Shown here piece after piece: positions 6,201 to 44,855 of a stretch of 64,000 nucleotides of DNA. A model generated the notes under the pieces. It had not been told where the DNA came from. It did not search any database and saw nothing but the letters and a program-made list of their open reading frames with translations. Source of the DNA: Azospirillaceae bacterium (lineage in GTDB: Bacteria > Pseudomonadota > Alphaproteobacteria > Azospirillales > Azospirillaceae); the NCBI GenBank assembly GCA_028281465.1, contig JANQJV010000183.1, forward strand, positions 1-64,000, read 5' to 3'. Numbering within the stretch: the stretch's first letter is position 1; every line of letters begins with the position of its first letter. A program made the translations under genes and the position numbers.

Positions 6201-7339
6201 CGACGGTGCTCGATACCATCGTCGATGGCATCATCGTCATCAACAGCAAGGGCCTCGTCTTACTTGCCAACCGGGCAGCCCATCAGATGTTCGGTTACTC
6301 TAGCGAGACCGGAGAACTGATTGGTAAGAATGTAAATATTCTGATGACCGATGCTGATCACCGACACCATAACCAGCATCTCAATAGCTATATGCGCACC
6401 GGCCGCCGCAAGATCATCGGTATCAGTCGAGACGTGGTGGGTCGTCGGCGCGACGGCACGACATTTCCGCTTGAGATTGCCATCGGGGAGATTTTCGACG
6501 AGGTGATGACCGGCGACCGGACCGACCGGCGCGCCTTCATCGGTACTTTGCGCGACATCTCTCGCCGAAAACTGTATGAGGAGGCGTTGCTCACCGCAAA
6601 GCGCACGGCCGAAGCGGCCAGTCAAGCCAAGAGCACTTTTTTGGCCCAGGTCAGTCATGAGCTGCGCACGCCGCTGAACGCCATCATCGGCTTTTCCGAA
6701 ATCATCAAGGAAGGCATCCTGGGACCGGTCAAGCCGCCGAAGTACGAGCAATATGCGGGCGATATCTTTTCCAGTGGCCATCACCTTCTGCGCATCATCA
6801 ACGATCTCTTGGACCTGTCGCGAATCGAAGCGGGTAAGGTGTCGATCGCTAGTGACGTTGTGGATCTCGTGGAGGTGGTGACCACCACGGTGAAGCTTCT
6901 GGAAGTCACGATCGAAGAGAAGTCGCTGCGCTTGGAGCTGCACATGCCCTCGGACCTTCCCAAGCTCAAGGCCGATGATCGGGCCATCCGCCAAATGCTG
7001 ATCAACGTGCTGTCTAACGCGGTCAAATTCACATCGCTTGCCGGAGCCATCGTCCTGACCGCCCGGGTGGAGCCGGATGGTGGCATGACAGTCTCGGTGT
7101 CGGACAGCGGCATTGGTATGACGGCGGAAGAGATCACTTGGGCCCTGGAACCGTTCGGCCGTGCCAACAGTGATCGGGCACGCAAGCACGAAGGTACCGG
7201 CCTTGGTCTGGTGATCACCAAGTCGTTGGTCGAACTGCATGGCGGTACGCTGGGCATCCAGAGCACGCCGGGGAAAGGGACCGTCGTCACCATCCATCTG
7301 CCGCACATTCGGGTGATGGCGGCTCTGCCGACGCTTTGA
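3293..7339 (+). CDS. CheB-CheR-PAS hybrid sensor histidine kinase
   Basis: This 1348-residue fusion joins chemoreceptor-type modification enzymes to a histidine kinase. Residues ~8-190 are a CheB methylesterase domain without a receiver; the triad is Ser16 (GASAGG), His43 and Asp134 (GSGSDG). Residues ~200-470 are a CheR methyltransferase with the SAM motif [11 protein letters not shown] and the catalytic-loop motif CRNLLIYF. A coiled coil of seven NEEL-type heptads covers residues 658-706. Three PAS segments follow; the last (GIIVIN...[12 protein letters not shown]) resembles the FixL type. A HisKA domain with His1122 (SHELRTPLN) and an HATPase domain ([12 protein letters not shown]) complete the protein. 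I see no transmembrane segment, so it is probably cytosolic. No response regulator or receptor gene is adjacent, so its partner is unknown. The domain order is known in many proteobacteria, but its signal is usually undefined. Confidence 0.9.
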
Positions 7340-24251: not shown

Positions 24252-27200
24252 GGAATGATAGCCGGCAGCACCTGGATGCGGCCGACGCGCTGCCGGGCGA
24301 CAAAGCGGGGTTTGTACAGGTCCTCGATGTGCGCCCCTGGCAATTCGTAGCTACCCGGTGTCACGGCCCGCACCAGGAAGGCCAGGCGGAACGACGGGCG
24401 TTCTGCGTCCAGGTCCACGGCGGCCACATAGCGATCATCGCGTGCCTCGGTGGTGCGGGACGTGGTGAGCGTCTTCAGCCAACCGAGGCTCCCGGTGCCT
24501 TCGGCCCCCAGAGTGGCGTTCTCGATCTCCCAGCCGGCCGGCATGGGGTGCACGACGATGGCCTGGTGGAACAGGCCGGTGTCCGCGCCGCCTTCCAGCA
24601 CCATGACGAACACGTCGTTTTGCGCCACTGTGTCCAGGTTCAGCGGCGTGCCATCGCGGTTGAAGAAGTAACGCCGTATGCTGAGCCCCTCGCGCACCGC
24701 CGGCCGCGGCTCGGCCGGCACTCCATGCACCGAGACCGCGTGCCACAGCGCTGTCGAGCCAGTATTTTCGATTGCGAAACCAGTTTCCAAGGCGGCGCGG
24801 GCGGGCACCAGGCGAACCATGCCGGTGGGGTCCGATACCGGGGCCCCGCCGGCGCGCAGAGTGAGGCCGGCGGGTGCCCGGTCCAGGAAGGCGGCAGCGG
24901 CTTGCACGAGCCAGGCTTGCTCTTGGGTGTTGGTGCGGGCGACAGCGGCTTCGGCCATGGGCAGGCGGTCGAGCAAGGTGGTCGCCCAGGTGTCCAAATG
25001 GCCGGTTTCCGCCAGGAGCACCGTGAGGGCTGCGGCGTCGCGCACGGTCGAGCCGTAGTCGCGATGCCAATCATCACGCGCCAGGCGTTCGATCGCCTGG
25101 TCGAAGGCCCAGTGGGCCTCGTCGGCGAACCCGCTGTGTGCCAGCGCCGCGGCCACCTGCCCACGGGCCAGGGGTGTCGGCAATCGGTCGAAGAACGCCT
25201 GGTAGAAGTACCGGATCGGGGCGGCCGACAGCCGCCCGGTCCGGGCCAGCATGGAGAGGCCGTACGCGCGCGCTGCGAGGCTGGCCGGATCGGTCGGGCC
25301 ATCCACCGCAAAGCGGCGCATCCAGTCGGTACCGGCGGCAAGCGGTGCGGACGGCACAGCGCGGCCGGCTGACTGCGCGCGGGTCAGGAAGTCGAGCGCA
25401 TAGGCGGTCAACCAAGGTTCCGCGGCACTGCGCGCACTCCAAAGGCCGAACGCGCCGTCGAAGCGCTGTTTGTCCAGCACTTGGCCGATGGCGCGGTCGA
25501 CTCGGCTGTCCACGTTCAACGGGCGTTCGGTCTGGGGAGCGTCGGTCAGCGCTTCTTCTGCTGCCTCGTCGTCACCGAGTCCGAGCGCCCGTTCGAGTGC
25601 CGAACCGGTCAGCAGTGGGAACGCCCGGCTGACTGTTTGTTCCAGGCAGCCGTATGGGAACCGGTCCAGCGCCGCCAACAAACCGGCCACGTCCATGGGC
25701 GGTGTCGTGCCGACCTGCACCGACAAGTGCCCGGTGCCTGGCATGAATCCGGCTAGGGCGTCGGCATCCAGGGTATCGACCCCGCCCGGTTCCAGCGCGC
25801 GCACGGTGAACAGTGTCTCCACCGGCCGGGCCGGGCGGACGGTGATGGCCACGTCTCGGGTAATCGACAAGCCGTCCGGTCCTTCCAGGGTGAGCGCGAT
25901 ATGGCCGATGCCGGCGCCGGTTGCCTTCAGCGGCAAGGTCATGCTCCTGCGGTCGTCACGCGCCAGAGTGAGGGTGGTGAGCGTCTCGTCAAGGTGTACC
26001 GGTCCCGACGTCGTCGGCTGGATGGTAAAGCGACCTTCCGGTGCGTCCACATTGTGCAGGGAGGCGGTGAGCTGGCTCACATCCCCCGGAGCGAGGAAGC
26101 GCGGCAAGGTGAGTTGCGAGACGAGTGCATCCCGGACCGTCACCGGTGCCGCCGCGGCGCCCAGCCGGTCCGGTCCGTAGGCGACCGCCATGACGCGCAG
26201 CCGGCCATTGAAATCCGGCACGTCGAGCGCCACCGTTGCCGTACCGCTTGGGTCCACCGGCACCGGACCTTGAAAGAGGGAGACGATGCGGAATGGCACC
26301 ACTGGCAAGGCCGCCGTGCCGCCACCGGTGTCGCCGCCCTGGCGCAAGGGGCCGAGCCGGTCGGTGACGGTGTCGATCAACCGGCCATAGTCATCGCGCA
26401 GGTCCAGTCCGAGTGACCGCTTGCCGAAATAGTGTCGACCCGGCCGGGGTGACGCGAAATCGGTCAGTTGCAGGATGCCCTCGTCCACGGCAGCAAGTGT
26501 GATGTGGGTCTGCGTAGCGGCCGGATCTCCCGTGTCGGTCTGCGTCACGCGCACCGGCACATGCAATGTCCGCCGTGGTGATACGACTTCCGGCAGATCG
26601 AGGTCGACGGTGAGACGGCGCGGGGTGGTGTCCAGGCCGAGCCAGGTGAGGCCGATGGCGCGCACCGGCAATCGGTCTTGGTCTTCGACCGGCGGGCGGA
26701 CAACGGAAGCGACCACATAGGCGCCCGGCCCCCAATCGGCTGCGACCGGCACCGACACATCGATACCCTCGGCCGGCACCGACACCAGGTGCGTATGGTG
26801 CAAACGATCGGTCGCCACGGTGACCAGTGCCTCACCGGCGAACGGCGGTGTGATGCGGACTGTCGCCGTTTCGCCGGGCCGGTAGGTCTCGCGCTGCGCG
26901 ACCACCTGGACCCGGTCCGGCGTATCGTCGGCCTGCGGTTCGACCCACCAGCCGGCGGTGAAGCGCACCGAGGTGGCAACGCCGGTCCGTGGTGCCGCCA
27001 CCTCTAAGCGGTAGCGCCCATACGGCAGCGGCCCAAGGGTGAGCCGGCGCGGGGCACCGACCGGCGTTTCGAGTGTGCCGGTTTCCAGGTCCGCGTCGAA
27101 ACGGACAACGCGAAAATTGTAGCGACCGTCCTCGAGATACCACTGATAGTCGCGTCGCTCCGCCACGAGCGCATAGGTTAAGTCGGTGTTCGCCGTTGCA

Positions 27201-29509
27201 GCGCCGTTCCGATCGAGCACGGCGATGTCGAAATCGGCTTGGCTGTTTTCAGCGATTCGGTTGCCGTCGAACGCCGGCTTCACACCGATGGCAAACGGCT
27301 GGTGGCGGACGGGGATCGTCAGTCGCTGGCGGGTCGGACGGCCGCCGGGTTCATTGACCGCGACCTCGACGGTGGCGCGCAGCGGCAGCGTCGTGTCCGG
27401 CAGGTCCGGTAGAGTAACCGGCAGCGCGGTCCGCCCGGTCGCGTCGGTCACTGGCACGGTCAGCTCGTGGCGACGCACCGTCACCGTATCGTCTTCCAGG
27501 CCGAAGCGGTAGCCGGCCCAGTCGGGATAGGCGTTTGGGTCGGCACCGACCGCGACCGAGGCGGACGCGCCCAGTCCGGCTGCCGGCGGACCGTACAGGA
27601 AATGCGCAACGACCGTGGCGGGGAAAAGCGTACCGGGCGTCAGAATGGTTTCAGCGGTTTCGATGGCGACGGTCAGGCGTTCCGGTACAAAATCTTCGAC
27701 CTGGAAGTGCAGGCGGCCCACCGGTTCGGCTTTGGGGTCGGCGAAAGCAAGTGCGGTCCAGGTGCCGAGCGGAGCGGTATCGGTCAGCGGCACCGACAAC
27801 ACAGCGCCGCCGGCGGCATCGGTGGGCAACACCCGAGCGACGGCTTCGGTACCGCTGGGACGCAGCACTTTGATATGGAGGGGGAAGCGGCCGACTGCGC
27901 GTGCCGCGTCGTCCCGCAAGAGGGCAGTGAGGTGCGCGGTCTCCCCCGGCCGATAAACACCGCGATCGGAATAAACGAACGCGTCCATCGGTCCGGGCGT
28001 CGTGCGCCCGCCCACGCCGCGGTCAGACAGGTCGAAGGCGGCGCGTGACAGGTCAAGCATCGCGAAATCGCCGTCGGCGCCATAGGCCATGATGGCAAGC
28101 GGTGTATTTCCACCCGTACCACGAGCCAGACCGGGATCAAAACGAACCCGTCCCATGGCATCAGTGGGCGCCGTGCCCAGGATGGTATTGTTGCGGGCGA
28201 TCAGCCGAACCGTGAGGCCAGGCACCGGTGTCGCTCTGGCAAAGGAGCGGGCGAACACGGTGATGCCGTCGGCGCCGCGGAAACTGGTCAGGCCCAAGTC
28301 CGACACCATCACCCATTGGGTCGCCTTGCGCCACGGCACAAACCCGTCTGGGACATCCGCGGGTTCGGCCACGACGGCATACAGCCCCGGTTTCGGGTCG
28401 GGCAGGATGTCGCGCAACGGCAGTCCCGTGGTCACCGCGTGGTTACGCGCTCCGCCCACGGCCATGAGACCTTGCCAGATTCGCTCGCCGCTTTGCTGGG
28501 TGATCTGGCGCATGCGGTATCCATACAGGGACCGCAACAGCGTGCCGTCATTGAGTTCGTCTGCCAGTCTGCGGTCGTTCAGGCGCAACACGCTGATCAG
28601 CACACTGTCGAGATTGATGGTTGTGAGCGGGATTCCGCCGCGGGCGCCGCGCGCCAGGATATGGCCGCCGGAGCGGAACGCGGCCGATGGCGCGCGATCG
28701 CCCACTGCCAGCGGCACGGTTTCCGCTGCCGCAAGCCTAAGTCCGTCGCGTCCGGGCAGGCCTTCGCGCAGTGTCAGCATGTAGCGCGTGCCATGGGCGA
28801 TGCCAGTCAGGCACAGTCGGTCGTCGCGGGCTTCGATGGTCACGTCGACCGTTGGGGTGATCGCCAGATAATCACCGAGCCGAACCGACGGATCGTCGGT
28901 CAGCGGGTCGGAAAAACGCAGACACGCCTGCGGTCGCTCCAGCTCGGACTCGACGTCAACGCGGTCGACGGTCAGGTGGATGCGCGTGAGCAGATCGGCA
29001 ATGCGTTGGTCGAGCCGGCTGCGCATGGTGGCCGGTAACAGGTCCCGAGCGGCCCGATATGCGCGCAGACCCTGCTTGGGCCTGTCCAGGGTGCCGGTCA
29101 GGAGATCGCCCAAGTGTTCCAGTGCCATCTGCCGGTCTCGGCGCGTCTCGGCGCGCCGGTAAGCCGTGTACATTGCGGCCACAGCACCGGTGAGCGCCTG
29201 CTGCGTGCCGAGAGTCTTCTGGGCAATGCCCAGGGAAAGCCAGGTCCCGGACCGGTCGTCACCGGCCGCGATGGCCGCGCGCAGTGCCCGTTCTCCTGCA
29301 CCCACATCTCCGGCCGCGAGGGCCGCCGTGGCAGCGGCGGATGCCGCCTCGATCCGCGCCGCGTCCGGCTGCGGCGGCCTGTCTTTGGCAAGGTCGGCTT
29401 CCAGCCGTGCCGCATCCCGGGCCAGGCCGGGGAGATCGAACACCGCCTCGGCTGCAACGGAACCGATCCAGGCCACCAGCACCAGCAAGGCTGCCAGACA
29501 TGCGCGCAT
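24248..29509 (-). CDS. Bacterial alpha-2-macroglobulin (YfhM-type)
   Basis: A very large periplasmic protein, 1753 residues. It starts MRACLAALLVLVAWIGSVAA, a Sec signal peptide with cleavage near AAEA. There is no lipobox cysteine at the cleavage site, unlike Escherichia coli YfhM, which is a lipoprotein. Macroglobulin-like MG domains fill the first ~1000 residues. The reactive thioester motif GCLEQ is present at Cys1288, followed by an alpha/alpha-toroid thioester domain. Bait-region proteolysis would expose the thioester and trap the protease covalently. It is the first gene of a two-gene unit with pbpC. The frame extends 69 bp upstream, but the signal peptide supports 29509. Confidence 0.93.
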   Translation of the reverse strand: MRACLAALLVLVAWIGSVAAEAVFDLPGLARDAARLEADLAKDRPPQPDAARIEAASAAATAALAAGDVGAGERALRAAIAAGDDRSGTWLSLGIAQKTLGTQQALTGAVAAMYTAYRRAETRRDRQMALEHLGDLLTGTLDRPKQGLRAYRAARDLLPATMRSRLDQRIADLLTRIHLTVDRVDVESELERPQACLRFSDPLTDDPSVRLGDYLAITPTVDVTIEARDDRLCLTGIAHGTRYMLTLREGLPGRDGLRLAAAETVPLAVGDRAPSAAFRSGGHILARGARGGIPLTTINLDSVLISVLRLNDRRLADELNDGTLLRSLYGYRMRQITQQSGERIWQGLMAVGGARNHAVTTGLPLRDILPDPKPGLYAVVAEPADVPDGFVPWRKATQWVMVSDLGLTSFRGADGITVFARSFARATPVPGLTVRLIARNNTILGTAPTDAMGRVRFDPGLARGTGGNTPLAIMAYGADGDFAMLDLSRAAFDLSDRGVGGRTTPGPMDAFVYSDRGVYRPGETAHLTALLRDDAARAVGRFPLHIKVLRPSGTEAVARVLPTDAAGGAVLSVPLTDTAPLGTWTALAFADPKAEPVGRLHFQVEDFVPERLTVAIETAETILTPGTLFPATVVAHFLYGPPAAGLGASASVAVGADPNAYPDWAGYRFGLEDDTVTVRRHELTVPVTDATGRTALPVTLPDLPDTTLPLRATVEVAVNEPGGRPTRQRLTIPVRHQPFAIGVKPAFDGNRIAENSQADFDIAVLDRNGAATANTDLTYALVAERRDYQWYLEDGRYNFRVVRFDADLETGTLETPVGAPRRLTLGPLPYGRYRLEVAAPRTGVATSVRFTAGWWVEPQADDTPDRVQVVAQRETYRPGETATVRITPPFAGEALVTVATDRLHHTHLVSVPAEGIDVSVPVAADWGPGAYVVASVVRPPVEDQDRLPVRAIGLTWLGLDTTPRRLTVDLDLPEVVSPRRTLHVPVRVTQTDTGDPAATQTHITLAAVDEGILQLTDFASPRPGRHYFGKRSLGLDLRDDYGRLIDTVTDRLGPLRQGGDTGGGTAALPVVPFRIVSLFQGPVPVDPSGTATVALDVPDFNGRLRVMAVAYGPDRLGAAAAPVTVRDALVSQLTLPRFLAPGDVSQLTASLHNVDAPEGRFTIQPTTSGPVHLDETLTTLTLARDDRRSMTLPLKATGAGIGHIALTLEGPDGLSITRDVAITVRPARPVETLFTVRALEPGGVDTLDADALAGFMPGTGHLSVQVGTTPPMDVAGLLAALDRFPYGCLEQTVSRAFPLLTGSALERALGLGDDEAAEEALTDAPQTERPLNVDSRVDRAIGQVLDKQRFDGAFGLWSARSAAEPWLTAYALDFLTRAQSAGRAVPSAPLAAGTDWMRRFAVDGPTDPASLAARAYGLSMLARTGRLSAAPIRYFYQAFFDRLPTPLARGQVAAALAHSGFADEAHWAFDQAIERLARDDWHRDYGSTVRDAAALTVLLAETGHLDTWATTLLDRLPMAEAAVARTNTQEQAWLVQAAAAFLDRAPAGLTLRAGGAPVSDPTGMVRLVPARAALETGFAIENTGSTALWHAVSVHGVPAEPRPAVREGLSIRRYFFNRDGTPLNLDTVAQNDVFVMVLEGGADTGLFHQAIVVHPMPAGWEIENATLGAEGTGSLGWLKTLTTSRTTEARDDRYVAAVDLDAERPSFRLAFLVRAVTPGSYELPGAHIEDLYKPRFVARQRVGRIQVLPAIIP

Positions 29510-29677
29510 AGCACTCTCCGTTGCCGCTGGGTCCTCGGGGGGTGTGGGACTCACCGGCCGATAGCAGTCATACTTCAAGCCATTAGAGTAGCAGACACGA
29601 TGGAACTTGTCTCTCTAACACCGGCACGGGGCACCGGCACGGGCCCGGCCGGTGGGCGGGGCACTGGGGCCGGACGT

Positions 29678-33913: not shown

Positions 33914-34096
33914 ATGACTATCATCGAGGTGCGTACCGTCACGCCGGCCATGGTTGCCGAGGGCCTCGATCGAGGCCGCCAATTGCACGACGCCGCCATC
34001 CGCGGCTTCGTGGTTGCAGCCTGGGCGCATCTGGCCGCGTGGGTCCAGTCGATCGTCAGTCACATCGGCCACGACGGTCACGCCGCCCGGGCGTGA
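33914..34096 (+). CDS. Small ORF divergent from LysR gene
   Basis: A 60-residue frame, MTIIEVRTVTPAMVAEGLDR..., preceded by CAGGAGTG at a good ribosome-binding distance (about 8 nt before the ATG). The peptide has an amphipathic middle (RGFVVAAWAHLAAWVQSIVSHI) and ends HAARA. I do not recognise it. It sits in the 470-bp gap between the LysR gene and efp, where a gene controlled by the regulator could be expected. It is short enough to be chance; the ribosome-binding site is the main support. Confidence 0.45.
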   Translation: MTIIEVRTVTPAMVAEGLDRGRQLHDAAIRGFVVAAWAHLAAWVQSIVSHIGHDGHAARA

Positions 34097-34219
34097 ATGG
34101 TCGAACCGGGCCCGCGAATGGACGCCCAGCGGATCGCACCGGGCCCGTTGCCCGCCCTCGGGCAAGCTGATAGGGTCGCGCGCATTCATCATCGCTGAGC
34201 GAAAGATCGAGTGCGTGCC

Positions 34220-34786
34220 ATGAAGGTGAACGCCAATACGCTTCGGGCCGGCCAGGTTCTTGAACACAACGGCAAACTCTGGGTGGTGGCAAAGACGGCC
34301 ATCGTGCAACCGGGCAAAGGTGGTGCCTTCATCCAGGTGGAAATGAAGGATGTTCGTAGCGGTACCAAAACGATAGAGCGGTTCCGAACACAAGAGACGG
34401 TGGAGCGGGCCCGTTTGGACGAGCACGAAATGCAATTTCTGTTCGCTGATGGTGACAGCTTCACGTTCATGGACAACGAGAGTTTTGAGCAGATCACCAT
34501 TACCCGGGACCTGATCGGCGAGCCGGCGGTTTTCCTCCAGGATGGTATGGCGGTGACCGTTCAGATGTATGAGGGATCGCCGCTCAGTGTGGAACTACCG
34601 GCGACGGTGACACTTGGCATCATCGAAGCGGAACCGGTGGTCAAGGGGCAAACGGCATCGTCATCCTACAAGCCGGCAATCCTGGAAAACGGCGTTAAGG
34701 TGATGGTGCCGCCGCATATCGAATCCGGCACCCGCATCGTCATCAACACCGCTGACGCCACATATCTGGAACGGGCGAAGGAGTGA
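34220..34786 (+). CDS. efp: Translation elongation factor P
   Basis: EF-P relieves ribosome stalling at polyproline. The 188-residue product has the three-domain layout: a KOW-like N-domain, then two OB folds ending SGTRIVINTADATYLERAKE. The tip of domain I reads VQPGKGGAF with Lys33, the position equivalent to Escherichia coli Lys34, which is beta-lysylated by EpmA. An EpmA homologue is encoded at 15206. A GTG nine bases upstream is in frame, but MKVNANTLRAGQV is the usual N-terminus. Downstream, suhB follows after 43 bp and may be co-transcribed. Proline-rich proteins in this window, such as the SPOR protein and the OmpA-like protein, are natural EF-P clients. Confidence 0.97.
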   Translation: MKVNANTLRAGQVLEHNGKLWVVAKTAIVQPGKGGAFIQVEMKDVRSGTKTIERFRTQETVERARLDEHEMQFLFADGDSFTFMDNESFEQITITRDLIGEPAVFLQDGMAVTVQMYEGSPLSVELPATVTLGIIEAEPVVKGQTASSSYKPAILENGVKVMVPPHIESGTRIVINTADATYLERAKE

Positions 34787-34829
34787 CGCCACCCATTGGG
34801 AGCGCTGTGCCAGGCCGGAGAGGGATGCG

Positions 34830-35678
34830 ATGAGCCCGCGTTCCGCCGTTGTCAACGTCATGGTGCGGGCCGCCGAAAAAGCCGGGCGCGCGTTGGTCCG
34901 CGATTTCGGCGAGGTCGAACAGCTACAGGTGTCTCGAAAGGGACCGGCGGATTTTGTTTCCAACGCCGACCTCAAGGCCGAGCAGATTGTCCGTGCCGAG
35001 CTGGCGCGGGCCCGCCCCGGCTATGGTTTCCTGATGGAGGAATCGGGGGCGGTCGCAGGGCGCGATGGTGAGCACCGCTGGATCGTTGACCCGCTCGACG
35101 GTACGACCAATTTCCTGCACGGTCTGCCGCAGTGGGCGGTTTCGATTGCGCTGGAGCGGTCGGGTGAGATTGTCGCCGGTGTCGTCCACAATCCGATTCA
35201 GGATCAAATGTTCTGGGCAGAAAAGGGCCAGGGCGCGTTCCTCAATTCCCAGCGCTTGCGCGTCTCCCAGCGCCGACGGCTCGATGAGGCCTTGGTCGGC
35301 ACGGGTTCTCCGTTCCGGGGCCACGGCGATTGGGATCGTTTCGGTCGCGAATTGGAAGCCGTGGTGGCGTCGACTGCCGGCGTGCGGCGTTTCGGATCGG
35401 CGTCGCTTGACCTGTCGTTGACGGCTGCTGGCCGGTTCGATGCGTTTTGGGAAAGCGACCTGAAACCCTGGGATGTGGCTGCCGGCGCACTTATCGTAGC
35501 CGAGGCCGGTGGTTTCGTGACCGAATTGAATGGGGGGCGGAACCCTGTGTACGGTGCGACCATCCTGGCGGCCAATCCCCATCTGCACCAGCCCTTGCTC
35601 AAACTGCTGAAGGCGGCGGTTGGCCGACCTCACGGTCGGGACGCCGGTACGCAGACTGTGGCGGGCCGTCGTCCCTAA
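34830..35678 (+). CDS. suhB: Inositol-1-monophosphatase family protein (SuhB-like)
   Basis: A 282-residue magnesium-dependent phosphatase. The metal-binding motifs are EESG (residues ~70-73), DPLDGTTNF and WDVAAGALIVAEAGG, all intact. The family hydrolyses inositol phosphates and related sugar phosphates; in Escherichia coli SuhB also joins the rRNA antitermination complex. GAGAGG precedes the ATG. The C-terminal ~20 residues (GRPHGRDAGTQTVAGRRP) extend past the family core and are Arg/Gly-rich. The efp-suhB order is common in alphaproteobacteria. Confidence 0.93.
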   Translation: MSPRSAVVNVMVRAAEKAGRALVRDFGEVEQLQVSRKGPADFVSNADLKAEQIVRAELARARPGYGFLMEESGAVAGRDGEHRWIVDPLDGTTNFLHGLPQWAVSIALERSGEIVAGVVHNPIQDQMFWAEKGQGAFLNSQRLRVSQRRRLDEALVGTGSPFRGHGDWDRFGRELEAVVASTAGVRRFGSASLDLSLTAAGRFDAFWESDLKPWDVAAGALIVAEAGGFVTELNGGRNPVYGATILAANPHLHQPLLKLLKAAVGRPHGRDAGTQTVAGRRP

Positions 35679-35815
35679 CGGATACGGGCCGGCCGTGGGC
35701 GGGCCGCCATGGCGCGACCCCATGGCAATTGCTGTCGGCCGCTCAGCTTGGATATTGTACCCGAAAGGCCATGCCGAAGCTTTGGGTTCGGCACCACCGG
35801 TTCGGGGCCAAGATT

Positions 35816-36631
35816 ATGGACGAGCGCGCATTTGGGTTCCGGCACCAGACCGGAAATCGTCGGTGGTTGACGCGGGCCGCCGTGTGCGTTGCCTTGGTGT
35901 TGACAGGCGGTCAAGGTGGCGCGGTGTTTTTGTCACCGGTGTCAGCGCAGACCGTGCATGAACCCGATTTCAGACTCGAAACGGTTGTTCCCATTGCTGT
36001 GCCGGACCCACCGACCCTGCCACGGTCGGCTCCGGTTTCGCGATCGGAACCAGTTTCTGCCATGATTCCGTTGGCAGTGCCCGTGCTGCCGCCCCTTGGG
36101 GCGCCATTGGCCTGGCCGGCCTCCCCGGTGTCGATCGCCGCACCGGCCGACCGCAGTGGCGGCGCCATGGCCGATGTGACCCGGCAACGATCAACGGTGG
36201 ACGGACGGGCGCCTGTTCCACGGAGCGAACAGGTGCGGACGGGGCCGAGGGATGAACCGGCGGCGGTGCCGACGCAGGTGGCCGCGGCCGGTGCTGCTGT
36301 GCGCGTGGTGCGCCCGCGCAGTTTCCAGCTCTTGTATGATCGCGGTGCCCACCAGCCGGGAGATGCCGGCCTGACGCGAGACGTGGTGACGGCCGTGCGC
36401 GACATGTTGGCCGGTCTGCCGAGTTTGCGCATCGAGCTGCGCGCCTTCGCCAGCGTCGACGACGATCGGCCGGCATCCGCGCGGCAGCTGTCCTTGCAGC
36501 GGGCGATGGACGTGCGGGAGCGTTTAGCGGCTTTGGGCATCCGGCGTGAACGGGTCAATCTCCGGGCGCTCGGACTGGCGGCCGAGGGGCCACCGGATAG
36601 GATTGACATCGTGCCGTTGGCGGCGAACTAG
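35816..36631 (+). CDS. OmpA-like periplasmic/outer-membrane protein
   Basis: A 271-residue product with a basic start, a hydrophobic stretch (AAVCVALVLTGG) and a likely signal-peptidase site at VSAQT near residue 45. A Pro/Ala-rich linker of ~110 residues follows. The C-terminal ~95 residues form an OmpA-like peptidoglycan-binding domain (SLRIELRAFASVDDDRPASARQLSLQRA). In that motif the usual G-H-T-D is replaced by A-F-A-S, so peptidoglycan binding may be weakened. An ATG at 35771 is an alternative start. It precedes the palindrome cluster and the MotA/MotB-like pair, which also contains an OmpA-type domain. Confidence 0.75.
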   Translation: MDERAFGFRHQTGNRRWLTRAAVCVALVLTGGQGGAVFLSPVSAQTVHEPDFRLETVVPIAVPDPPTLPRSAPVSRSEPVSAMIPLAVPVLPPLGAPLAWPASPVSIAAPADRSGGAMADVTRQRSTVDGRAPVPRSEQVRTGPRDEPAAVPTQVAAAGAAVRVVRPRSFQLLYDRGAHQPGDAGLTRDVVTAVRDMLAGLPSLRIELRAFASVDDDRPASARQLSLQRAMDVRERLAALGIRRERVNLRALGLAAEGPPDRIDIVPLAAN

Positions 36632-36676
36632 AGCAAATCCTGAGCGCAGTGAGTCAATCTGCGACGGGGATTTGCT
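36631..36676. repeat. Intergenic palindrome, AAATCC/GGATTT type, copy 1
   Basis: AGCAAATCC (36632-36640) pairs with GGGATTTGCT (36667-36676); the interior CGCAGTGAGTCAATCTGCG pairs imperfectly. It begins directly at the stop codon of the OmpA-like gene. The same AAATCC...CAATCTGCGACG...GGATTT design recurs at 36852-36899 and, as a near-perfect palindrome, at 57981-58026. Confidence 0.75.
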
Positions 36677-36689
36677 GTAAAAACAAAGA

Positions 36690-36735
36690 GCTAGAGCGGG
36701 TTCCGCGAACCAGTATGAGCCGAAAACGCTCTAGC
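36690..36735. repeat. Palindromic repeat, CTAGAGC type, copy 2
   Basis: GCTAGAGCG (36690-36698) and CGCTCTAGC (36727-36735) are perfect complements. TTCCGCGAACC inside is shared with the copy at 132-179. It lies 13 bp after the preceding palindrome. Confidence 0.8.
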
Positions 36736-36784
36736 ATGCCGACCAGTCAAATGGGTCGCGTCAGTCCATTTGACTGGTCGGCAT
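36736..36784. repeat. Perfect 19-bp inverted repeat
   Basis: The arm at 36736-36754 (ATGCCGACCAGTCAAATGG) is perfectly complementary to the arm at 36766-36784, with an 11-nt loop. It abuts the CTAGAGC palindrome with no gap. It could be a very stable hairpin RNA or the arms of a mobile miniature element. Confidence 0.85.
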
Positions 36785-36805
36785 GATGCAGTTGTGAATC
36801 CGGTG

Positions 36806-36846
36806 CGACGACTCAAACGATCGGGACCGAAGCGTCTGAGTCGTCG
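36806..36846. repeat. Palindromic element with TCGGGACCGA core
   Basis: CGACGACTCA (36806-36815) pairs perfectly with TGAGTCGTCG (36837-36846). The core ACGATCGGGACCGAAGCGTCT resembles the core of the hairpin at 58041-58073, which also follows an AAATCC-type palindrome. This supports a modular two-part repeat family. Confidence 0.7.
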
Positions 36847-36851
36847 TGGGG

Positions 36852-36899
36852 GAGCGAATGCCGAGCAGATCGAGGCGATCTGCGACGAAGTGATTTGCT
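36852..36899. repeat. Intergenic palindrome, AAATCC/GGATTT type, degenerate copy
   Basis: The sequence from AGCGAATGC to GATTTGCT follows the pattern of copy 1 at 36631, including GATCTGCGACG in the middle. GCAGATCG pairs with CGATCTGC inside it. The arms have drifted, so this looks like an older copy. Confidence 0.6.
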
Positions 36900-36995
36900 G
36901 ACAAGCCAAGTGGCTGGAGCCCTCATGTCCTGCGCCGGAGCGACGGGACGCGGCACCGGTCCGGGGCATCGCTGAAGCAAGGTTGGCGTCGATCC

Positions 36996-38156
36996 ATGAT
37001 GAGCCCGAGCCGTTATCTCAGCCGGATGATTCTTTTCCTGTTCGCAGCCGGCACCATTGCTGCAATCCTGTTTCCGGCCATCGAAGACGCCTTCGTGACC
37101 AATGTGGGATTGAACGGTACGATCCTCGCCGTGCTCCTGCTCGGCGTCGTCTACATATTCCGCACCGTCCTCATGCTCGGCCCGGAAGTCCGCTGGCTCA
37201 GGCAATTTCAGGCGGCCCAGCAGGGAGCAATGCAGCGTCCGCGCCGGGATGTGCATCCTAAGCTGCTCGCACCCATGGCGCGTATGCTGGGTGAGCGCAA
37301 GACACGAATCTCGTTGTCGGCCCTTTCCATGCGCTCGGTGCTGGACGGCATTGGCGCCCGCCTGGACGAATCCCGCGAAGTTTCCCGGTATCTGATTGGC
37401 CTGTTGATCTTCCTCGGTTTGCTCGGCACGTTTTGGGGCCTGCTTCAAACGGTCCGCTCCGTCGGCGACGTCATCGGCACGCTGTCGGTTGCCGGCGGAG
37501 ACATGGCGATCATGTTCAGCAACCTGCAGGACGGTCTGCAGGAACCGTTGAATGGCATGGGGACGGCCTTCAGTTCATCGCTGTTTGGGTTGGCCGGATC
37601 GCTCGTTCTGGGATTTCTTGAACTGCAGGCCACCCAAGCGCAGAACCGATTCTTCCAGGACGTGGAAGACTGGTTGTCTGGTGCAACCCGCTTGTCGAGC
37701 GGTGCCGGATCGGTCGACGCCGACCAGTCGGTTCCGGCCTATATCCAGGCCTTGCTGGAACAGACGGCGGAAAACATCGATTCCCTGCAGCGGACGACGG
37801 CCCAGGCTGAAGAGGGTCGGCGGATCGCCAATGCCAACCTGATGACGCTGACCGAGAAGTTGAGCACCCTCACCGATCAGATGCGCGCCGAACAGAGCCT
37901 GATGATGCGATTGGCCGAGAGCCTTCTGGAGTTGAAGCCCATGGTGCAGCGGTTAGCTGAAGTGGCGACCACCAGCGGGTTCGGCGTCGACGACGCCACA
38001 CGCCAGCACATCCGCAATATCGATGTCATGTTGGCCCGTTTGAATGACGAGGTGGCGCTCGGCCGCACGCAATCGGTTCAAGAGATCCGCAGCGACATCA
38101 AGCTGATCGCCCGGACCATCGCCGCCCTCGCCGAGGAAGCCGAACACCAAAGCTGA
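36996..38156 (+). CDS. MotA/TolQ/ExbB-family proton-channel-like protein
   Basis: A 386-residue inner-membrane protein with four predicted helices: ~10-28, ~39-62, ~132-153 and ~187-212. The last two carry the family signatures LGLLGTFWGLLQTV and GMGTAFSSSLFGLAGSLVLGF. The C-terminal ~170 residues are cytoplasmic and predicted to be helical or coiled. The topology fits the MotA/TolQ family, but the large cytoplasmic loop of MotA and its charged rotor-contact residues are not evident. This, plus the distance from flagellar genes and the unusual partner, argues against a flagellar stator. The MotB-like gene starts 13 bp after its stop, so they form one unit and probably one complex. Confidence 0.82.
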   Translation: MMSPSRYLSRMILFLFAAGTIAAILFPAIEDAFVTNVGLNGTILAVLLLGVVYIFRTVLMLGPEVRWLRQFQAAQQGAMQRPRRDVHPKLLAPMARMLGERKTRISLSALSMRSVLDGIGARLDESREVSRYLIGLLIFLGLLGTFWGLLQTVRSVGDVIGTLSVAGGDMAIMFSNLQDGLQEPLNGMGTAFSSSLFGLAGSLVLGFLELQATQAQNRFFQDVEDWLSGATRLSSGAGSVDADQSVPAYIQALLEQTAENIDSLQRTTAQAEEGRRIANANLMTLTEKLSTLTDQMRAEQSLMMRLAESLLELKPMVQRLAEVATTSGFGVDDATRQHIRNIDVMLARLNDEVALGRTQSVQEIRSDIKLIARTIAALAEEAEHQS

Positions 38157-38168
38157 TCACCCGGATCC

Positions 38169-40058
38169 ATGCAGCCAACAGCCCGCCGCTCGGCACAACG
38201 TGCGATCAACATTTGGCCAGGATGGGTGGACGCCCTGTCGTCCCTTATCATGGTCATCATCTTCATGTTGCTGATTTTCGTCGTGGCGCAGTTCTTCCTC
38301 GCCAACGCGCTCACCGGTCGCGACCAGGCCCTGATGCGCCTGACCCAGCGGGTGGACGAAGTGTCTGGATTGCTCACGGTCGAACGGCAAGCCAACGCGG
38401 ATTTGCAGATCAGCGTGACGCAGCTCTCCGATCAGCTCCAGCAGGCCATGACTGATCGGGAGGAGATGGCCTCGGCGATCCGCCGGTTCGAACAGGAACG
38501 CGCGACTCTGGTGGCGAGCGTGGAGGCGCTGACCGGGCGCAGCAGTTCCCTGGCGACGCGTTTGGACTCGGCCAATTCCGGTCTCGCGGAGGCCGCGTCA
38601 GTGTTGGAAGAGAACAGCGCCCGGATCGACCGGCAAATGCGGGAAATCGCCAGTTTGCAGGGGGATGTTCAGGCCTTGCGCGCGGTCCGGGCAGAGTTGG
38701 AGGGGGATGTTGCCGAGTTGGCCCAGGTCGAAGCGACGCTGCGCGGCGAACTGGATCGGTTGGACCGCCAGTTGGTCGCCGCCGTCCTGGCCGGGGACGA
38801 GCTCCGGGTTCAACTGGACGCGGCGGAACAGCGCGAGGTCGCTCTGCGCGATCAAGTGACCTTATCCGACCAGAAACGCCAGATCCTGCTCGAACGCATC
38901 GCCGGTCTGGATACGGCGTTGGAGGCCGAACGGGCCCAGGTGGTTGAGGCGCAGGAGGCGCTGCGGTTGTCGGACGCCGATCGGGCGGAGCTGCGTACAG
39001 TCCTATCCGATCTCCGCGCACGGCTGGGCGAAAGCGACGGGGCACGCGGGGCCATGGCTGAGCGTGTCGCTGCGGCCGAACGAGCGCAAGCCGGGCTTGC
39101 CGAGACATTGGCACTGTCGCAGGCGCGCACCGAGGACTTGATCGCCGAGATGCGTGATCTTCGGCAGGCGCTGCAGGCGGCCGAGGATCGTGGCGCTGTT
39201 CTCGCTGAAGAAGTGCGCCTGACAGAACGGCAGCGCCAGGCGGTGCTGCACGAGCTCGGCACGGTGCGTGACCGAACCATGGCGCTCGAAACGCGGTTGG
39301 CGGAGGCGCAGGAGCGCACGATGTTGGCACAGCGTAGGCTCGAGGCGCGCGCCATCCGCATTGCCGACCTGGAGCAAATCGTCGCCGCCACGCGGGCGGA
39401 ACACACACAGGAACAAAAAGAAAGTGACGCGGCGCGAACCCGGTCGGAAGCATTGAGCGATCGTATTGCGCAATTGCAGGAGGAGTTGGCACGGCTAACC
39501 GCGGCACTGCAGGAGTCGGAAGCAACGGTGGTCAGCCAGCGGATGGAAATCGGGGACCTGGGCCAGCGACTCAATCTGGCCCTGGCCTCTCGGGTCGAGG
39601 AATTGGCTGCTTACCGTTCCGAATTCTTTGGACGATTGCGCGGTGCTTTGGGAAACCGCGATGAAATTCGCGTGGTCGGCGACCGGTTCGTGTTCCAATC
39701 GGAAGTTCTGTTCGCCAGCGGATCGGCAACGCTAGAGGCTGCTGGCGAGCGCCAACTCGAAGGTTTGGCCCGGACATTGCTCGAGATTTCCAGGACCATC
39801 CCGACGGAACTGGATTGGATTCTGCGCGTGGACGGTCATACCGACCGGCGGCCGATCAACTCGCCCCGTTTCCCCTCCAACTGGGAGTTGTCTGCCGCCC
39901 GTGCCATCTCCGTGGTCAAACACCTGATCGAGCGCGGCATTTCGGCCGAGCGCTTGGCCGCAGCCGGTTTTGGCGAATTTCAGCCCATCGATGCCGGCAT
40001 CAGCGCGGCCGCACTCGCCCGCAACCGACGCATTGAGCTCCGGCTCGATCAACGCTGA
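38169..40058 (+). CDS. MotB-like protein with long coiled coil and OmpA domain
   Basis: A 629-residue protein. One N-terminal membrane helix (residues ~22-45) starts with a conserved-position aspartate, Asp21 in WVDALSSLIMVIIF, equivalent to the proton-carrying Asp of MotB. About 430 residues of near-continuous coiled coil follow (~50-480), rich in Ala, Glu, Arg and Gln. The C-terminus, ~515-629, is an OmpA/MotB peptidoglycan-binding domain with VDGHTDRRPINSPRFPSNWELSAARA. Flagellar MotB is about half this length. With the MotA-like partner it would form an ion-driven complex that spans a wide periplasm or reaches the cell wall. Similar pairs occur in other alphaproteobacteria, but I know no established role. 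Confidence 0.85.
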   Translation: MQPTARRSAQRAINIWPGWVDALSSLIMVIIFMLLIFVVAQFFLANALTGRDQALMRLTQRVDEVSGLLTVERQANADLQISVTQLSDQLQQAMTDREEMASAIRRFEQERATLVASVEALTGRSSSLATRLDSANSGLAEAASVLEENSARIDRQMREIASLQGDVQALRAVRAELEGDVAELAQVEATLRGELDRLDRQLVAAVLAGDELRVQLDAAEQREVALRDQVTLSDQKRQILLERIAGLDTALEAERAQVVEAQEALRLSDADRAELRTVLSDLRARLGESDGARGAMAERVAAAERAQAGLAETLALSQARTEDLIAEMRDLRQALQAAEDRGAVLAEEVRLTERQRQAVLHELGTVRDRTMALETRLAEAQERTMLAQRRLEARAIRIADLEQIVAATRAEHTQEQKESDAARTRSEALSDRIAQLQEELARLTAALQESEATVVSQRMEIGDLGQRLNLALASRVEELAAYRSEFFGRLRGALGNRDEIRVVGDRFVFQSEVLFASGSATLEAAGERQLEGLARTLLEISRTIPTELDWILRVDGHTDRRPINSPRFPSNWELSAARAISVVKHLIERGISAERLAAAGFGEFQPIDAGISAAALARNRRIELRLDQR

Positions 40059-40090
40059 GCGCTGGCGTGGCATCGGCGGCAAGGGCGATT

Positions 40091-41935
40091 TTACTCGGCT
40101 GCGACCGGTTCGGGTAGCGTATCTGCAGCCTTCCTTGACTCCGTGAACTGGAGCTTGGCGAGGCGGGCGTACAACCCACCCTCCGCCAGCAAGGAGTCGT
40201 GTGTCCCGCTGGCGACGACGCGCCCCTGATCTAGCACAACAATCCGATCAGCACGGCGGACGGTTGCCAGGCGATGGGCGATGATGACCGTGGTCCGTCC
40301 TACCATCAGGCCATCCAGGGCGGCCTGTACCATGCGTTCGCTTTCCGCATCCAGGGCCGATGTGGCTTCATCCAGCAGCAGGATCGGCGGATTTTGGAGG
40401 ATGGCGCGGGCAATGGCGATGCGCTGTCGCTGACCGCCCGACAGCCGAACACCCTTTTCGCCCAAATGGGTGTCAAGGCCGTGCGGCAGGGCATCCAGGA
40501 ACGTCAGGGCATGGGCTGCTTCCGCCGCCGTGCGCACGCGGCGATCATTGGCGTCTGGCTGGCCGTAGCGAATGTTCTCGCGCGCGCTGGTGGAAAAAAT
40601 GACCGGATCCTGTGGCACCAGCCCAATGTGTCGGCGGAGTGTGGCCGGGTCGACCCGGCGAATGTCGGTGTCGCCAATGCGAATGGCACCGCTCTGGGGA
40701 TCGTAGAACCGAAGCAAGAGCTGGAACACGGTTGTCTTGCCGGCACCGCTCGGTCCGACCACGGCCAGCGTCTCGCCGGGGGCGACCGTTAACCGGACGC
40801 CGTCCAGCGCCGACCGGTCGGGACGGGACGGGTAATGGAAGCGCACGTCGACGAAGTGAATCGGGTGCCGCTGCGGGTCCGGTAAGGGGACCGGATGGGC
40901 CGGTGGGACGATGTCCGGTTTTGTATCCATGATGTCAATCAGGCGCTCGGTGGCGCCCGCGGCCCGTTGCACGTCGCCAATCACTTCGCTAATCGCGCCG
41001 ACGGCACCGGCCACCACGGCGGCATACAGCACGAAGGCGGACAGGTCGCCGGCTGTGATCCGGCCCGTCAAAACGTCATGACCGCCAATCCACAAGATGA
41101 CGCCGATGGCGCCGAAGACGAGCAGGATCACCACCGCCGTGAGCAAGGCCCGGGCCCGCACCCGGTCGATGGCGCTCGTGAAGGCGCGTTCGGTCCGTGC
41201 GGCGAACTGGTTGCGCTCCGCCGTTTCCTGGGTGAACGCCTGGACCGTGCGAATCGCCGACAGGGTCTCGTCCACTTGGCTGCCGACATCGGCGATGCGG
41301 TCTTGACTGATGCGCGACAGCGTGCGCACTCGCCGGCCGAACACCATGATCGGCACCACGAGCAGCGGCACGACCAAGAACACCAGCCCGGTGAGCCGCC
41401 CACTGGTGACCAACAACATGACGGTGCCGCCGACCAGCAGCAACAGGTTGCGCAACGCCACCGAGGCCGAGGAACCGATCACGGTTTGCAGCAACGTCGT
41501 GTCAGTCGTGACGCGCGAGAGCATCTCACCAGTCGAGGTGACCTCGAAGAACGCCGGACTCTGGCGCAGGAGGTGATCGTAAACGTCGCGGCGCAGATCG
41601 GCGACCACGCGCTCGCCCAGCCAGGAGACGAGATAGAACCGGGCGTAGGTAGCCAGCGCCAACAGGACGACCACGCCGAGGAGGACCAACAGAGCCCGGT
41701 CGAGCAAGCCCTCGTCGCCGGTGGCGAACCCCTGATCGACAAGGACTCGCAGACCCTGGCCGAGACCGAGAACGGTGCCGGCGGCAACGGTCAGAGCCAG
41801 CGCGGCACCCGCGACCGGCCATCGGTATGGTTTCAGGTACGGGACCAGCCGGCGCAGCGGTCGGAGATTGCGGACCGGACGGGTCTGGTGCCTGGCGTGA
41901 CCGTCGGGCGCGGTGTGGGGCGACGGATCGGGCAT
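40091..41935 (-). CDS. ABC transporter, fused permease/ATPase (MsbA/LmrA-like exporter)
   Basis: A 614-residue half-transporter that would act as a dimer in the inner membrane. Six transmembrane helices occupy residues ~30-320. The ATPase domain has Walker A GPSGAGKTT, Q-loop VPQDPVIFS, signature LSGGQRQRIAIARA, Walker B ILLLDEATSALD and H-loop IIAHRLATV. The sequence fits multidrug or lipid exporters. The substrate is unknown; a lipid A or lipid flippase role is possible but not shown. A TTG at 41953 is an alternative start. The gene is divergent from rpmE and convergent with the MotB-like gene, 32 bp apart. Confidence 0.9.
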   Translation of the reverse strand: MPDPSPHTAPDGHARHQTRPVRNLRPLRRLVPYLKPYRWPVAGAALALTVAAGTVLGLGQGLRVLVDQGFATGDEGLLDRALLVLLGVVVLLALATYARFYLVSWLGERVVADLRRDVYDHLLRQSPAFFEVTSTGEMLSRVTTDTTLLQTVIGSSASVALRNLLLLVGGTVMLLVTSGRLTGLVFLVVPLLVVPIMVFGRRVRTLSRISQDRIADVGSQVDETLSAIRTVQAFTQETAERNQFAARTERAFTSAIDRVRARALLTAVVILLVFGAIGVILWIGGHDVLTGRITAGDLSAFVLYAAVVAGAVGAISEVIGDVQRAAGATERLIDIMDTKPDIVPPAHPVPLPDPQRHPIHFVDVRFHYPSRPDRSALDGVRLTVAPGETLAVVGPSGAGKTTVFQLLLRFYDPQSGAIRIGDTDIRRVDPATLRRHIGLVPQDPVIFSTSARENIRYGQPDANDRRVRTAAEAAHALTFLDALPHGLDTHLGEKGVRLSGGQRQRIAIARAILQNPPILLLDEATSALDAESERMVQAALDGLMVGRTTVIIAHRLATVRRADRIVVLDQGRVVASGTHDSLLAEGGLYARLAKLQFTESRKAADTLPEPVAAE

Positions 41936-42262
41936 GGCGGATTCGCGGAACAAGGCCGAAGTCCCGTGCTGAGGGGAGGAATGCGCGGTCAGGATATGGC
42001 AGCCGCTGCAATTGGAGGCAAACCAGAAAGGTGGCCTCGGCGTGGCGACCCGATCACGGTCACCTTGCGCTTCCGGGTCAATGTCGGCTATTAACCCGTC
42101 TTTGGCCAGCAGAGCAGATGCGGTCTATCATCAGCCGGCGGACGTGCCGCGCCGGCTGTGTTGTCGTGCATGTACGCATGGACGGCGGTCGGGGTGACCG
42201 ACGGACCCATGCAGGGAGCCACGCGGCGCAGCGAAACGAGGTAACACGAAAGGTCGCCGACA
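41936..42262. other. Divergent promoter region, ABC exporter / rpmE
   Basis: A 327-base gap with no gene. A possible rpmE promoter on the plus strand is TTGCGC (42065-42070) with an 18-bp spacer and TATTAA (42089-42094); this is a loose match. Several GC-rich inverted repeats lie between 42130 and 42230 and could form leader-RNA structure before rpmE, but no ribosomal-protein leader motif is recognised. Confidence 0.4.
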
Positions 42263-44069: not shown

Positions 44070-44855
44070 ATGCGCAGCCTTGCCATCGGCGCGACCGGCA
44101 TGCTGGCCCAGCAGCTCAATGTTGAGGTCATTTCCAATAACATTGCCAACAGTTCGACCACTGGTTACAAGCGCCAACGCGTCGATTTCCAGGATCTTCT
44201 GTACCAGAACATGCGTCGAATCGGCTCGACGTCGTCCGATGCCGGCACCATCCTACCGTCCGGTGTTCAGGTCGGCGCCGGTGTTCGCCCGGCCGCTGTG
44301 TACCGGATCAACGAGCAAGGCAACATTACGGTCACCGACAACAAGCTCGACTTGGCCATCAATGGACGTGGTTACTTCCAGATCACCCTGCCCAACGGCG
44401 ATACGGCCTACACCCGGTCGGGTTCATTTCAGTTGAGCGCCGACGGGCAGGTGGTGACGGCCGACGGCTTCGTTCTTCAGCCTGGCGTCGCCATTCCGCC
44501 GGAAACTGTTGACATCACAGTCAGTTCGACCGGTCTCGTGCAGGCGAAGCTGGATGGCCAGGTTGCTCCGCAGGACGTGGGACAACTGCAGCTCGCCGTC
44601 TTCGCCAACGACGCCGGCCTGGAAGCGATCGGTAACAACCTGCTCCTCGAGACGCCGTCGTCGGGAGCCCCGGTTGCCGCCAACCCGGGCGATCCGGGTG
44701 CCGGTCGGCTCATCCAGGGGGCGTTGGAAACGGCAAACGTCAATATCGTTCAGGAAATCACCACGTTGATCACGGCGCAGCGTGCGTACGAAATGAACTC
44801 ACGTGTCATCCGGACCACGGACGAGATGATGCAGACCGTCGGTCAGCTCCGATAA
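44070..44855 (+). CDS. flgG: Flagellar distal rod protein FlgG
   Basis: The major distal-rod subunit, 261 residues. It starts MRSLAIGATGMLAQQLNVEVISNNIANSSTTGYKRQR, ends SRVIRTTDEMMQTVGQLR and has a perfect AAGGAGGA ribosome-binding site. The insert DLLYQNMRRIGSTSSDAGTILPSGVQVG is the FlgG-specific stretch that distinguishes it from FlgF. Rod subunits are exported through the type III apparatus without cleavage. Confidence 0.97.
   Translation: MRSLAIGATGMLAQQLNVEVISNNIANSSTTGYKRQRVDFQDLLYQNMRRIGSTSSDAGTILPSGVQVGAGVRPAAVYRINEQGNITVTDNKLDLAINGRGYFQITLPNGDTAYTRSGSFQLSADGQVVTADGFVLQPGVAIPPETVDITVSSTGLVQAKLDGQVAPQDVGQLQLAVFANDAGLEAIGNNLLLETPSSGAPVAANPGDPGAGRLIQGALETANVNIVQEITTLITAQRAYEMNSRVIRTTDEMMQTVGQLR

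Follow-up and report, generated by a model that had tools for sequence, protein, structure and literature searches.

Among the systems closest to the one described here, Zorya ZorAB is a 5:2 assembly whose tail and peptidoglycan binding are both required (PMC11890865), and ZorA has additional beta structure in its cytoplasmic domain (PMC12505986). In the generic ion transporters of the TolQR/ExbBD group the B subunit has no recognisable OmpA domain, and the portion of that superfamily survey used here does not treat the family studied below as a group (PMC12505986). We analyzed a tandem pair of genes, called A and B, in a stretch of 64,000 nucleotides from an Azospirillaceae bacterium (contig JANQJV010000183.1, positions 1 to 64,000; "the window" means this whole stretch). 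The architecture of the pair, its conservation, its place in the tree, its presence in genomes without flgG, the co-retention of A and B, and their neighbourhood were established. We lean, with modest confidence, toward reading the pair as an ion-driven, peptidoglycan-anchored inner-membrane motor of the ZorAB type, non-flagellar and widespread in alphaproteobacteria, that serves growth or division of the envelope.

The pair has very probably been studied before, as the 'MotA/MotB' of Komagataeibacter, where a role in division was already suggested; this was the only study of it that our literature search found. In K. hansenii, which has no flagellum, 'motA' (348 aa) and 'motB' (321 aa) are adjacent genes and the B product ends in an OmpA domain. 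Overexpression produced longer, chained cells with zones indicative of septum formation as well as looser cellulose at higher yield, and green fluorescent protein fusions localised to the pole in short cells and to both poles in long ones (PMC6570709). Joint overexpression of both genes gave a cell length of ~3.9 versus 1.8 µm and more colony spreading, and the authors raised a role in division or outer-membrane invagination, by their own words without enough data (PMC6315621).

Architecture of the A and B proteins

Gene A (36996..38156, + strand) encodes 386 residues with membrane helices of the MotA/TolQ/ExbB type and a helical cytoplasmic tail of ~150-170 residues, and gene B (38169..40058, + strand) encodes 629 residues with a single membrane helix, ~450 helical residues, and a C-terminal OmpA domain. 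Both reading frames are open and stand in tandem; from the end of A at 38156 to the start of B at 38169 the spacing is 12 bases, where the initial annotation, made from the letters of the window, had counted 13. Asp21 of B (codon 38229..38231, + strand), the candidate ion-carrying residue, sits inside WPGWVDAL. B has a Pfam OmpA match of E=1.1e-14 (55 bits, cut-off 27.2) and passes the NCBIfam model NF006543 (PRK09039, 'peptidoglycan -binding protein') at 442.5 bits against a cut-off of 305, while all its scores with four sister PRK09039 models lie under their cut-offs. A passes none of the NCBIfam models, and its Pfam MotA_ExbB match stays below the cut-off (18.3 bits versus 22.9), an assignment that is backed by the fold comparison. 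We conclude that A is a channel protein of the MotA/TolQ/ExbB type, that B is a membrane-Asp protein ending in an OmpA domain, and that B belongs to a known but unnamed family, PRK09039. The initial annotation had described a TolQ/MotA-type channel with a helical cytoplasmic tail of ~170 residues and a MotB-like partner with Asp21 in its membrane helix and a C-terminal OmpA domain, all of which agrees with the fold and tail helices modelled for A and with these matches.

AlphaFold models were made of single chains, with alignments of 58 sequences for A and 44 for B. The A model (mean pLDDT, predicted local distance difference test, 86.0) has eight helices and no strand, with tail helices at 247-326 and 333-385. 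In the B model (mean pLDDT 78.1, predicted template modelling score 0.37, residues 1-22 under 50), helices at 24-285 and 290-494 are followed by an OmpA-type fold. The best VIA-align Z scores for A, mainly over residues 6-244, were 11.9 for TolQ, 11.4 for ExbB, 10.7 for ZorA, and 10.0 for MotA; since unrelated helical bundles reach 10.7 in the same list, these scores cannot rank the candidate families.

Conservation falls where a 5:2 motor requires it, at the membrane Asp of B (Asp in 138 of 138 complete proteins) and, in the third membrane helix of A, at the polar Thr145 (Thr in 160 of 161 rows). Thr190 of A is Thr in 130 of the 161 rows and Ile, Val, Met, or Leu in 30. The invariant positions of B are Asp21, Gly556, Asp559, Asn571, Leu574, Arg578, and Arg621.

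A coiled coil of ~430 residues had been proposed for B. A long helical stretch is indeed modelled, and a hydrophobic periodicity of 3.5 residues was matched by 0 of 2000 shuffles for residues 46-285 and by 489 of 2000 for residues 290-490, so that a textbook heptad coil is confined to the first half. Long reach, which had been taken as the defining trait, does not describe the family: the B coil ranges from 110 to 708 residues with a median of 232 (n=138), and the 435 residues of the window, exceeded in six proteins, are among the longest. An alpha-helix rises 0.15 nm per residue, which puts a straight helix of 435 residues at ~65 nm; this is more than the radial span that a periplasm should hold, and the coil of the window must therefore bend, fold back, or follow the wall. 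Growth of the coil by internal duplication was rejected, as the two halves of the window coil align with a score of 86 against a shuffle mean of 75 and maximum of 114 (300 shuffles).

The tail of A, counted as residues past the column of window residue 212, is of constrained length (n=161; 5-95% range 87-196, middle half 169-174, window 174), while the periplasmic B coil is unconstrained. The two lengths are uncorrelated (Spearman rho 0.13, p=0.14, n=138), and a coupled ruler made of tail and coil was rejected on this ground. A constrained tail beside a free coil is what would be expected if the pair were mainly a sensor of tension or wall distance, gating ion flow and using the A tail for signalling. 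A signalling partner is lacking among the known components, and the present data do not part sensing from force generation; we regard this explanation as unlikely.

Kinship of A and B

A tree of 73 proteins was computed with IQ-TREE (LG+C20+F+G4, posterior mean site frequencies, midpoint root). A branch with 100/99 support parts the A family together with ZorA-like rows from MotA, from MotA with an OmpA partner, and from 21 of the 22 rows labelled TolQ/ExbB; the 22nd, L270, is an outlier with a branch length of 5.87. A falls outside the clade of the six flagellar MotA rows, which has 100/100 support. The tree thus keeps A outside flagellar MotA and is too weak to give the direction of descent between Zorya and the A family.

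With PADLOC models, which carry no cut-offs, A scores 49.9 bits against ZorA1 and B scores 81.7 bits against ZorB3, and the only sequence match of A in the PDB is ZorA (8vvn, E=0.0037). The initial annotation had set B beside the shorter MotB, TolR, ExbD, and ZorB; the kinship with ion motors that this implied holds, whereas the tailed ZorA-like proteins, the nearest relatives of A, had been missed.

These matches, and the grouping of A with ZorA-like rows, would also fit a Zorya-like anti-phage motor, the more so as L256, a protein accompanied by a partner with an OmpA match and a ZorB-like helix, FADLMTALM, scores 41.8 bits with the ZorA1 profile, no better than A. A high-scoring ZorA in genome G387 (partners unchecked) reaches 294 bits with the same profile, and the A/B locus is syntenic and mostly single-copy throughout the class. 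The neighbours identified around the pair are efp, suhB, the OmpA-like gene, the ABC (ATP-binding cassette) exporter, DUF1465, and LysR, and those in Sinorhizobium meliloti are envelope and housekeeping genes; no ZorC/D/E-type neighbour was identified in the window or in S. meliloti, though no search with ZorC/D/E profiles was made. An anti-phage function is therefore very unlikely.

A further branch of the motor type was seen in two genomes of 1.3-1.4 Mb, where A-like proteins of 1336-1499 aa (L159, 5125-9624; L160, 2145-6155) are followed by B-like proteins with a membrane Asp motif and no OmpA match.

Distribution and relation to flagella

Among 241 alphaproteobacterial genomes, the A profile matches 161, which represent 123 of 186 genera, leaving 80 without a match, and flgG (TIGR02488) matches 150 of the 241. 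Both are found in 110 genomes, A only in 51, flgG only in 40, and neither in 40. Several of the A-only genomes measure just 0.7-1.4 Mb. Across the phylum, the profile matches 100 of 299 genomes, and among the matches listed from outside the class only those in G318, G368, G384, G375, and G449 lie below 1e-90. The function is dispensable, as the genes can be disrupted in K. hansenii according to a review and A was not found in the 80 genomes.

Inspection of 28 of the 51 A-only genomes located B next to A in 19, elsewhere in 6, and in neither position in 3. NF006543 was searched in 15 genomes. A and B lie apart in nine genomes (G022, G095, G119, G127, G134, G175, G193, G241, and G256, eight of them judged by the surroundings of A and G241 by contig only), and each of these has elsewhere a match to about positions 104-350 of the model in an open frame of 298-360 aa. 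Among the matches listed, the N-terminal part of B is present as well in seven of the nine, and G193 shows positions 109-349 only. The match in G134 passes the cut-off; those in G119, G193, and G256 fall below it. That both genes are kept after the operon has split argues that A and B work together.

Annotations as 'flagellar motor protein MotA' suggest an auxiliary or alternative flagellar stator. The window does hold flgG (44076-44849) among open reading frames read by eye as flgF, flgA, and flgH, the OmpA domain of B is MotB-like, overexpression in K. hansenii widened colony spreading about threefold (PMC6570709), and A and flgG are positively, if weakly, associated (odds 1.9, p=0.026, kinship uncorrected and seven weak flgG rows dropped). 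Against this stand the position of A outside the flagellar MotA clade, the 51 of 161 A-bearing genomes without a flgG match, the missing flagellum of K. hansenii, and a separate MotA in the window's own genome, accompanied by a MotB with YADFVTAMM (L005). A stator role is thus most improbable. The initial annotation had likewise rejected it, and had named a phylogeny inside flagellar MotAB, or absence of the pair from every non-flagellated relative, as findings that would speak for the opposite; the tree and the 51 genomes show neither.

Several A genes stood out in this survey. In two 0.9 Mb genomes (L147 and L152, from G070 and G159), the A match spans in-frame stops and the open reading frames are 253-258 aa, so these genes are possibly decaying. 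One genome with a long-tailed A (L161) has a second, short-tailed A of 260 aa with its own B of 433 aa (L162, G112:C5). Of six genomes inspected, four (G010, G026, G040, and G301) have a TolQ-like gene at a distance of ~15-24 kb from A, on one contig with it.

Gene neighbourhood and candidate partners

A gene-neighbourhood survey across alphaproteobacteria, proposed in the initial annotation, found the pair in genomes without a flgG match and showed a conserved efp-suhB-A-B block. The order efp-suhB-(OmpA-like)-A-B is widespread; the window has elongation factor P (efp, 34211..34786, + strand) and a suhB-type inositol monophosphatase (34830..35678, + strand) as conserved neighbours. Where 3.5 kb or more of upstream sequence was available (101 loci), suhB is on the same strand in 77 and efp with suhB in 73. 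A B gene with an OmpA match is directly downstream of A in 139 of 161 loci, and six of the other 22 reach the contig end (L066, L076, L080, L096, L119, and L202). The 161 loci, the window among them, are partly non-independent, with L103 and L104 near-identical and L135 and L136 sharing a contig. An Rfam search of the window gave zero matches, and a promoter scan of 34000-42000 found none.

Between suhB and A lies an OmpA-like gene, C (35816..36631, + strand), which encodes 271 aa from the likely ATG, a start set by judgement, and ends 365 bases ahead of A. Its product has a signal-peptide-like start and a Pro-rich stretch, both read by eye, and a non-canonical OmpA domain. The initial annotation had pointed to a further OmpA-like gene just upstream: the position is kept in many loci, while the match in the window (20.9 bits) is under the Pfam OmpA cut-off of 27.2, which the counterparts in L062 and L109 exceed (42.3 and 39.1 bits). 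With a C-terminal profile, 115 of the 161 loci showed a C-like frame directly upstream of A and in the same orientation, and in eight more (L076, L083, L099, L115, L117, L127, L191, and L215) it overlaps the A start as set here. The C consensus retains ARRLSLSRALAVR and has AYA in place of the GHTD of B, so C may not bind peptidoglycan. The L062 counterpart has a lipoprotein-signal-like start by eye. No C-like frame was seen in the 21 rhizobia-like loci, where the C profile matched B alone (they are called "rhizobia-like" for their gene order and for the resemblance of their B to that of S. meliloti).

The S. meliloti Ak57 locus runs from a Sel1-repeat protein through an inositol monophosphatase to A (368 aa) and B (342 aa), followed by an opposite-strand ABC exporter. 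The pair is annotated there as 'MotA/TolQ/ExbB proton channel family protein' and 'peptidoglycan -binding protein', and B passes NF006544 (692.4 bits, cut-off 362). Of 20 further loci, three of them from outside the class, 12 have a same-strand gene for a protein resembling this Sel1 protein (scores 68-467) within 8 kb upstream of A. From its Sel1 repeats, signal-like start, and tag order, the Sel1-repeat gene near the pair in Sinorhizobium and rhizobia-like genomes is very probably rgsF. The same 31-kb S. meliloti stretch encodes a 605-aa protein with DUF882, which we take to be an M15-type domain; length and peptidase type fit RgsC (605 aa, M15 peptidase). By tag order alone, RgsB would be the DUF1036 protein. 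RgsF has been described as essential for polar growth in S. meliloti, and a targeted smc03995 knock-out gave no growth (PMC5929573).

Counting from the Rgs tags suggested S. meliloti 1021 tags in the SMc0399x range for A and B. SMc03994 is called ribosomal protein S21 (PMC9611204) and no S21-type frame was seen in the corresponding Ak57 gap, so no 1021 tag was assigned to either gene. A ChvI-bound fragment lies within SMc03993 (PMC3687685), which may or may not belong to the A/B cluster.

Downstream of B, the window has a convergent ABC exporter (40091..41953, - strand), and of 106 loci having A and B matches, 28 carry such an exporter no more than 4.5 kb downstream. Together with membership of the same superfamily, this might suggest an energiser of outer-membrane transport or export, or of cellulose secretion, and K. 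hansenii offers looser cellulose with raised yield on overexpression and denser cellulose on disruption of motA, motB, or both in ATCC 53582 (review PMC7347698). B ends, however, in an OmpA domain of the peptidoglycan-binding type, the exporter is encoded on the other strand, several genomes of 0.7-1.1 Mb retain the pair, and the K. hansenii papers tie the cellulose change to cell length. We consider an energiser unlikely.

Three further features were seen in this survey. In the window, a penicillin-binding protein 1C-like gene adjoins one for a 1776-aa bacterial alpha-2-macroglobulin (22122-29578, - strand), and a 1348-aa CheB-CheR-PAS-histidine kinase fusion lies at 3293-7339 (+ strand). The record of L293 (CP090106.1), labelled pSymB, holds apparent chromosomal core genes (tkt, gap, pgk, and pyk), and its replicon label may be swapped.

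Probable correspondence with the Komagataeibacter genes

K. hansenii MotB is reported to be 46% identical over 98-99% to proteins of Rhizobium gallicum and Magnetospirillum (PMC6570709). Within our family, the B proteins of L116 and L109 (319 and 347 aa) share 46.6-47.8% identity over their whole length with the rhizobia-like B of G301, which itself scores 518 bits against S. meliloti B, and eight longer B proteins from Acetobacteraceae-type loci show 39.5-54.3% over 56-99% to rhizobia-like B. Alignments of two flagellar MotB proteins with family B cover 34% at most. Judged by this calibration of published identities, MotA and MotB of K. hansenii are very probably orthologs of A and B.

Proposed function

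Rotation, the ion, the partners, and the role of the pair are what we infer from the results above. By analogy with 5:2 motors, five A subunits may form a channel around two B helices, and ions may pass Asp21 of B along a polar A lining while A turns around B. The OmpA domain would hold B at the peptidoglycan through a helical linker whose length is set in each lineage. Torque or pull would then go outward to the wall and to periplasmic partners (C in many loci, RgsF in rhizobia-like genomes), or alternatively inward through the length-constrained A tail. Most likely the pair would act as a second Tol-Pal, moving or regulating wall and envelope growth at the pole or the site of division. Polar location, elongated cells, the RgsF neighbour, and an OmpA-like partner make force on the wall at growth zones the best reading. 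Of the roles first proposed, namely division, envelope constriction, or trafficking, envelope growth and division thus draw the best support, by inference from these points.

A number of observations weigh against a motor serving envelope growth, beyond the wider spreading and the weak flgG association given above. E. coli carrying the K. hansenii genes was unchanged (PMC6570709), and the review that reports the disruptions favours motility (PMC7347698); since the genes can be disrupted, the pair is not essential there. A is missing from 40 genomes with flgG and 40 without. No recognisable full B was found in G084, G089, and G171, nor in G023; the protein downstream of A in G089 and G171 has a membrane Asp motif without an OmpA match, G023 and G084 have weak OmpA matches only, and G196 has OmpA matches with a short N-terminal piece. 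As efp and suhB are housekeeping genes, their synteny is possibly passive. A Sel1 gene lies near A in just 4 of the first 161 loci, and Sel1 repeats are common, so paralogs may account for part of the 12 in 20 loci. Neither MotA nor OmpA occurs as a word in the main text of PMC7327166, and identification of A or B with a named Rgs protein was rejected. Support for the A group is low (55/64), with several long branches, and the structural comparison of A does not separate TolQ, ExbB, and ZorA, with unrelated bundles comparable.

A wider proposal is possible, though we hold it only tentatively: that alphaproteobacteria have a further envelope motor beside Mot, Tol, and Exb, of the ZorAB type, with a lineage-tuned B coil and periplasmic partners (C or RgsF), which drives or gates peptidoglycan growth at pole and septum and has a common ancestor with Zorya. 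With such an ancestor, a wall-growth motor may have been taken over for phage defence, or a defence motor for wall growth. If the motor reading holds, two thirds of the sampled alphaproteobacterial genomes, very reduced ones included, run this motor, which is entered in databases either as a flagellar protein or, without a name of its own, as a 'peptidoglycan -binding protein'. Zorya would gain a chromosomal relative, RgsF would gain a testable partner, and the 'motility' mutants of K. hansenii would be set in a wider frame.

Comparison with known systems

The Komagataeibacter pair differs in its short B and was read there mainly as a set of motility genes. The curated PRK09039 models (NF006542-NF006546) accept B of the window and of S. 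meliloti, and they cover B alone and assign it no motor role.

Flagellar MotAB shares a MotA-type A, an OmpA-type B, and the membrane Asp with the pair. A lies outside the MotA clade and occurs without flgG, and the B motif is mostly WPG[FYW]VDAL in contrast to YADFVTAMM.

TolQR-Pal and ExbBD resemble the pair in the channel fold of A (Z 11-12) and in the proposed envelope role. CpoB is a periplasmic repeat protein of tol-pal, which the Sel1 repeat-protein neighbour in rhizobia-like genomes recalls. A is nevertheless apart from 21 of 22 TolQ/ExbB rows, and B ends in an OmpA domain (1.1e-14), which sets it outside the TolQR/ExbBD group as defined by a B without one.

Zorya ZorAB comes nearest to A in profiles and in the tree, and a cytoplasmic tail, a peptidoglycan-binding B, and a membrane-helix Asp are common to both. 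They differ in size (A has 386 aa, L256 and L238 have 662 and 862 aa), in the syntenic, core-like locus of A and B, and in the single-chain model of A, which has no strand, unlike the cytoplasmic beta structure of ZorA.

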